From: Agarophyton chilense | Taxonomy: Eukaryota > Rhodophyta > Florideophyceae > Gracilariales > Gracilariaceae | Reading direction: 5' to 3' | NCBI GenBank assembly: GCA_030374765.1 | Contig: JARGXX010000014.1 | Coordinates: 62,001 to 126,000, forward strand | Length of the DNA: 64,000 nt | In this document: piece after piece, positions 52,753 to 53,366 of the stretch | Layout of the letters: the number at the start of each line of letters is the position of its first letter | Numbering within the stretch: the stretch's first letter is position 1 | Program-made: the position numbers and the translations under genes | The notes under the pieces: generated by a model | What the model saw: only the letters and a program-made list of their open reading frames with translations | What the model was told of the DNA's origin: nothing | Database searches by the model: none

Positions 52753-53366
52753 CTAAATGCTCTTGGTCGCTTCATAACGGTCCTTAACTCCCAAATAGAT
52801 GGTTTCTTCTGCGCCTTCCTCATTATACGTCACCCTACTTCTCGACGCACCGCCTCCAACTGCCTGACTGTACTCGATTCGGAAAGTATGGATATCGATG
52901 CGGCACACTACGTTAGTGACATGCTCCAGAGCATAGATTTGGTCCTTAATTTTACCACGACCTCCTCCCAAATACCATAACTTCTCGATCATCCAATCGT
53001 TGTACTCAATTCTGATATCGGGATCGTCGTCGTCGTCCAAAGCCTCTGTAAGGTCCAATCGGAACATCATCAACCCTCCAAACTGCGTGCCACGAAACGG
53101 CCGGATAAAATGAGTATCCTGCGCCCGAGAAGAATAATCGCTTCGTTTTCGCTAAATCGCACGAGATTGTTTCTGCCTTCCAATGTGATTGCGTAGATTT
53201 TCCTCAGGCCACGCTGCAGTTTCGAACAGAGAACCTTGACAATATTCTTGTTAAGGTATTGGTCAAGATATGTCTCGCTTGTGATTTTTGCCGCTCTGCC
53301 TGCAAGCTGGCGCGGTGGGGGTTTTCGGCCAACAGATTTGCGACCCGTATGCTTAGTTCGAGCCAT
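52753..53366 (-). pseudogene. Antisense gene of Copia-B, N-terminal part with histone H3-like tail
   Basis: From the ATG at 53366 the minus strand reads MARTKHTGRKSVGRK and, a few residues on, PRQLAGRAAK. This is close to the histone H3 N-terminal tail ([20 protein letters not shown]): it keeps the residues equivalent to R2, T3, K4, R8, K9, S10 and K14. The H3 fold does not follow. Instead there is SETYLDQYLNKNIVKVLCS, KLQRGLRKIYAITLEGRNN and IILLGRRILILSGRFVARS, stopping at 53070. The next frame (53073-52753) overlaps this stop and continues with RLDLTEALDDDDDPDIRIEY, WYLGGGRGKIKDQIYALEH and SRVTYNEEGAEETIYLG. A single frameshift near 53075 would join them. It lies opposite to and downstream of Copia-B pol, inside the LTRs. 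Confidence 0.65.

Follow-up and report, generated by a model that had tools for sequence, protein, structure and literature searches.

An antisense gene in a Ty1/copia LTR retrotransposon of the red alga Agarophyton chilense encodes a non-histone accessory protein that begins with the N-terminal tail of histone H3. The tail, the protein family to which the body belongs, the antisense position and the selection on the reading frame are all seen directly in the genomic copies. Our reading of these features, to which we give an even chance of being right, is that an accessory protein encoded antisense, which may be a papain-like thiol hydrolase, would have acquired the H3 tail to dock on host proteins that bind the tail of H3.

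The antisense gene and its copia element

Here, the window refers to the whole stretch of 64,000 nucleotides that was analysed. Phycobilisome genes, nearly all of them on contig C39, and histone H3 genes in an 80-Mb genome agree with a red-algal host. The element in it is bounded by a 5′ LTR (46933..47148, plus strand) and a 3′ LTR (53685..53899, plus strand), which are 79.6% identical, and homology to the other insertions compared stops, at the DNA level, with the latter. A gag-pol part with several broken frames (47349..50459, plus strand), read from its position, is followed by an RT-RNase H stretch (50490..51991, plus strand) that is 60-65% identical to the pol of the sister copy L046 in two pieces [C14:112490-113500 and 113119-113991, converted to window positions by subtracting 62000]. 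The window's own gag-pol and pol pieces gave no match when sent to Pfam; the L046 pol matches RVT_2 (E 6.9e-20). Hence, the two LTRs together with the RVT_2-type RT, as identified via L046, make the element a Ty1/copia LTR retrotransposon. A polypurine-like tract, as we read the sequence, lies directly before the 3′ LTR (53674..53684, plus strand), and a leader separates this LTR from the antisense ATG (53367..53684, minus strand).

The minus-strand frame starting with the ATG at 53366 opens with MARTKHTGRKSVGRKPPPRQLAGRAAK (53366-53286). The first antisense frame covers 53073-53366 (minus strand), and homology to sister copies carries on in the shifted frames 52756-53151 and 52021-52752. Since the homology continues in this manner, the gene spans 53366-52018 (52018..53366, minus strand) and is broken in the window copy by one frame shift and one stop; in relatives it is ~449 codons long. 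The earlier note had described a protein at 52753-53366, reversed and placed between pol and the 3′ LTR of a copia element. Mapping of the LTRs and the RT confirms the placement, and the H3-like start at 53366 stands; the single frame does not, as there are five stops in the ATG frame. By alignment, the C-terminal part (52021..52752, minus strand) corresponds to the region where the family has its Cys...Asn...His...Asp pattern, of which the window copy has kept the Cys and the Asp, with Asn and His replaced. The H3-tail lineage looks old, because the LTR pair of the window copy is only 79.6% identical and the longest open frame among the matches listed is 399 aa.

Protein searches of the genome gave 61 matches to the N-terminal part and 70 to the C-terminal part, the C-terminal list including distant relatives. 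In the search with the RT, the best 85 of 1492 candidates were scored, that is, the nearest RTs were sampled. The RT set consisted of 42 of 89 rows with at least 59% identity (five more such pieces fall in the same loci), merged into 35 loci, and these were compared with 51 of the 61 N-terminal and 43 of the 70 C-terminal rows, the rest being second pieces or distant relatives. At 30 of the 35 RT loci the gene is present within 3.5 kb downstream of the RT on the opposite strand, and at none on the same strand. The N-terminal part is included at 26 of these 30, and the gap between the RT-RNase H match and the gene is 25-36 nt at 19 of them. Among the five RT loci without the gene nearby, three (C115, C92 and C68) have a match 9-11 kb further on and on the expected strand, as judged by eye. 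The protein-identical copies at C14, C82 (two places) and C106 represent one duplicated stretch; two of them (L047 and L048), compared at length, are 99.8-99.97% identical in DNA well past the borders of the element, and these copies are segmental or assembly duplicates. Counting the near-identical C14, C81, C82 and C106 once leaves 27 of 32 RT loci with the gene. The claim in the earlier note that the element carries a non-histone protein with an H3 tail is in keeping with this association, and the frame is present in other genomic copies, not absent from them.

Other repeated DNA was seen in the window. Several copies of related repeated segments cluster at 29600-35800, and two related segments of ~3 kb (24552-27596 and 60957-64000) are 69-77% identical piecewise.

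The H3-like tail across copies and its origin

The tail comprises 27 codons (53286..53366, minus strand), as defined by the window sequence and the copy alignment together with a PDB match of a sister copy. In the window copy, 17 of 27 residues are identical to H3. The sister copy L006 has 22 of 27, the top value seen, and its tail matches H3 chains in PDB over residues ~1-30 (E~1e-5); the 60 of 131 chains listed are all H3, H3 peptides or H3 variants/chimaeras. A chance resemblance is ruled out by these matches and by the recurrence of the tail across copies. Downstream of the tail, no PF00125 match was found with Pfam among the frames scanned, and in the copies read there is no full H3 gene behind the tail. 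Thus, an H3 tail at the start of the protein with no histone fold after it, as the earlier note had it, agrees with what we find.

Conservation of the tail was counted in 33 of 34 copies, with C95a left out due to a gap and C71, in which the tail is unrecognisable, scored as a miss. A start Met ahead of the same body is present in 28 of the 33. The residues kept are A1 (29 copies), R2 (27), T3 (28), K4 (29), Q5 (28), R8 (27), K9 (27), S10 (25), K14 (23), Q19 (27) and K23 (28). At other positions the lineage departs from H3: T11 is replaced by V in 20 copies and by D in eight, K18 by R in 24, and K27 is absent, with I or V in 29. Moreover, K14 is replaced by Q in five diverged copies (C75, C105, C16, C95b and C135b).

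This pattern bears on a possible, if somewhat improbable, alternative in which the tail is a nuclear import signal only, such that importins that carry H3 take the protein in and chromatin is not mimicked. K14 and K23, which we take to be key importin contacts, include one of the best kept residues, K23 (28/33), with K14 kept in 23/33. A basic signal, however, needs no exact start, yet R2, T3, K4 and Q5 are kept in 27-29 of the 33 copies, and the five diverged copies with Q at position 14 also speak against import alone. Import is nevertheless a strong plain reading, because H3 residues 1-28 localise a reporter to the nucleus; as reported in PMC12933015, this segment suffices in both HeLa cells and yeast.

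With respect to origin, the 5′ end of a host H3 gene was probably captured to give the tail. H3-type A15 is found in 11 copies, mostly diverged ones, and H3-type T11 in two (C75 and L059); diverged copies thus hold H3 residues lost elsewhere, which would favour capture over convergence. The copy tree was midpoint-rooted, and L059, a diverged sister with a related LTR and leader, lies outside it. The tails of L059 and C75 still begin M(G/A)RTKQ(T/I)AR(K/E)ST. At the DNA level, the tails of L006, L007 and L059 are identical to host H3 genes at only 50-55 of 78 nt. The N-terminal sequence of host H3 was read from the genes L049 and L050. No match to a host H3 5′ UTR carried along with the tail was found. 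The stretch after the L059 tail resembles, by eye, a Tc1/mariner transposase.

In another dispersed repeat of the genome (L055 and L057, alike over 3 kb, and L056), there is a fragment from the 5′ end of an H3 gene that is 80-85% identical to the host gene L049. In L055 and L057 this fragment goes out of frame past codon ~14, and in L056 it is split; hits similar to the L055-L057 fragments occur at C31 and C75.

Body of the protein, its relatives and expression

Searches with the body against Pfam, PHROG and PDB profiles gave no convincing match. The HMM search of the body that had been suggested thus returned no histone, in line with the earlier reading, and no convincing family either. Within the genome, relatives were found in Gypsy elements (L029-L036 and L038; best phmmer E values ~1e-15 to 1e-16, the weakest ~1e-8) and in Copia elements (L037 and L040). 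The pol of L037 and L040 is of the RVT_2 type and that of L029 of the Gypsy type according to Pfam. A second Gypsy lineage (L060) and the Copia loci L061/L062 were assigned by eye from their pol. In the stretches covered for L063 and L041, both similar to L037, no pol was recognised. Wherever pol is in view, the relatives are antisense to it. None of these Copia and Gypsy body relatives has an evident H3 tail. On these similarities, the proteins belong to one accessory family common to Copia and Gypsy elements of this genome.

A Cys-x6-Asn motif followed by His and Asp recurs in the family. In the H3-tail lineage (18 rows, with C22 and the duplicate C81 left out), Cys is present in 18, Asn in 13, His in 15 and Asp in 17. 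The pattern is also seen in L029 and, by eye, in L037, L041 and L060-L062; in L040 the Cys-Asn spacing is one residue shorter, and L063 has a Tyr at the Cys position. As the Cys-x6-Asn...His...Asp pattern is kept, the body is possibly a papain-like thiol hydrolase, which would make it a protease or an enzyme that removes ubiquitin-like tags. AlphaFold models of the body were poor (pLDDT 40 and 45). Five Gypsy copies (L032-L036) have in common an in-frame deletion of the Cys part that leaves a 276-aa frame open; in the one copy pair measured, the deletion is 585 bp between short direct repeats. Enzyme activity would perhaps be dispensable in some members, because these Gypsy copies lose the Cys with the frame kept open and L063 has the Tyr. 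Splicing as the source of the 585-bp deletion was rejected: none of the eight placements shows GT-AG, and the ends carry short direct repeats (one copy pair). In L060 (413-1618), the antisense relative in this Gypsy-like lineage has a poly-serine stretch ahead of the C-terminal domain.

With respect to expression, the EukProt protein P0001 (GEZJ01002355.1, taken as a transcript assembly from its record name) differs from the Gypsy versions L029-L031 at 5-7 of 399 residues. Given this near identity, this species or a close one probably transcribes the Gypsy version of the accessory gene. The N-terminus of the Gypsy version is uncertain, since the first residue of P0001 corresponds to Met 26 of the genomic frame. 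The N-terminal MAVTRQRVRAQ of the Gypsy frame was considered as an H3 tail and rejected: the likeness is loose, and P0001 starts only downstream, at Met 26. The Gypsy leader of L038 lacks the MAVTRQ segment, and the first Met of its frame is Met 26, as in P0001. Word-based searches listed no transcript-type record for the H3-tail lineage among their matches. No TATA common to the antisense leaders was found. E2F-like sites occur in 13 of 16 copies at shifting positions, and a promoter of the S-phase type (E2F-like) was set aside, as the sites are unsteady in place.

Selection on the frame and possible roles of the tail

Selection was assessed in 15 of 20 aligned copies [C135a, C128 and C25 have no N-terminal part, C81 is a near-duplicate and C22 lacks the 3′ half], with p values from parsimony counts and a simple neutral model. 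Over the whole frame, internal branches carry 239 nonsynonymous (N) and 190 synonymous (S) changes (omega ~0.41, p=1.7e-19), compared with N=833 and S=338 on terminal branches (omega ~0.79). The difference in omega between internal and terminal branches indicates that the protein was selected while the copies multiplied and decayed after insertion; the whole frame was under purifying selection during the spread of the family. Internal-branch changes by codon position are 118/99/212 in the frame versus 45/45/38 in the 300 nt upstream. There are 53 stops in the antisense frame versus 121-432 in each of the other five. A sense-strand gene in the same stretch is ruled out, as every sense frame has more stops. 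Selection on the frame also disposes of the possibility, raised earlier, of a captured histone pseudogene, because the body gives no histone match and the frame was selected.

Antisense transcription could instead matter through the RNA, a regulatory transcript directed against the sense genome, and such transcripts have been discussed for plant elements (PMC7264820). The codon-level purifying selection on internal branches makes this reading highly improbable.

Constraint on the tail by itself is weak. The tail (codons 2-27) has N=11 and S=10 in the 15 copies (omega ~0.42, p=0.04), and N=38 and S=23 (omega ~0.60, p=0.038) in 31 of 34 copies (L059, C71 and C80 dropped); for codons 2-11 by themselves, significance is not reached (p=0.28). 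Hence, the purifying selection that the earlier note had proposed to look for is clear for the whole frame and weak for the tail. Such marginal values are what would be expected if the tail were a captured H3 fragment carried as a passenger, a relic tolerated on a selected body, and frame-shifted H3 5′ fragments do occur in another repeat of the genome (L055-L057). We nevertheless consider a relic unlikely, given that the tail has survived deep divergence: L059 and C75 keep its start even though the tail DNA of the copies compared matches host H3 at just 50-55 of 78 nt.

The docking reading that we prefer can be outlined as follows. An accessory protein of ~450 aa, encoded antisense between pol and the 3′ LTR, would have had its N-terminus turned into an H3 tail in one Ty1/copia lineage. 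Because the tail sits at residue 1, removal of the Met would leave a free N-terminal end like that of H3. Proteins that bind the H3 tail (importins, readers of the PHD type and chromo readers, and methyltransferases) might then pick up the protein, so that its body would be brought into the nucleus and onto chromatin, and the element may benefit from such docking. The exact H3-like start would favour binding by factors that need a free H3 end. Within this docking reading, we rate mimicry beyond import and import alone as about evenly matched. As the earlier note put forward, the tail may bind chromatin readers, steer integration or help the element escape silencing; a role as import signal would fit as well. 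A more specific and rather doubtful version is that of a histone mimic, in which the free H3 end would be bound or modified by host writers and readers of K4 and K9 and thereby blunt silencing or choose the chromatin site; the family is found in Copia and Gypsy elements, and the tail in this lineage only.

Should the tail act as a mimic, histone mimicry, a strategy of viruses, would extend to transposable elements. The genome would then hold a natural record of the H3-tail residues that host factors need, with K4, K9, S10 and K23 mostly kept and K18 and K27 lost.

Influenza NS1, G9a and EZHIP are non-histone proteins with a short H3-like stretch; the algal protein differs in that its stretch is 27 residues long, lies at the very N-terminus and is encoded by a transposable element. 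The resemblance to histone H3 itself extends to at most 22 of the first 27 residues; there is no histone-fold match and K27 is absent. In chromoviruses, the integrase chromodomain ties a retroelement protein to histone tails. There, the retroelement reads a histone mark, whereas the protein of the algal element presents an H3-like tail. We know of no H3 tail in HTLV-1 HBZ or other retroviral antisense genes. These genes, likened here by description and not by sequence, resemble the algal gene in being antisense with a nuclear product (PMC11963269).

Plant elements carry antisense genes at the same place, with function described as unknown (PMC7264820, PMC11963269). The algal gene is like these aORFs in position, strand and retention in most copies of some families, and unlike them in its algal host, its presence in Copia as well as Gypsy elements, its N-terminal H3 tail and the lack of TRP28 or another convincing Pfam match. 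The word "histone" is absent from the main texts of both papers. Should the tail be a mimic, it would also hint at what antisense accessory genes do, a function described as unknown for the plant elements of PMC7264820. LTR elements of bdelloid rotifers have additional ORF3s common to diverse retroelements (PMC5408684), similar in that accessory genes were gained by more than one element clade. The rotifer ORF3s encode other proteins (env-like, GDSL esterase and DEDDy exonuclease), and the main text of that paper does not use the word "histone". In a literature search covering titles and the starts of abstracts, with most subscription journals outside its range, no record named a transposable element with an H3 tail or a histone mimic, nor antisense genes in LTR elements of red algae. 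A search for non-histone proteins with an H3 tail elsewhere covered 49 candidates and gave 12 matches with E values of 10 or lower. Ten of these have a histone domain; the other two are P0004, which looks like an H3 carrying additional sequence, and P0011, represented by one record.
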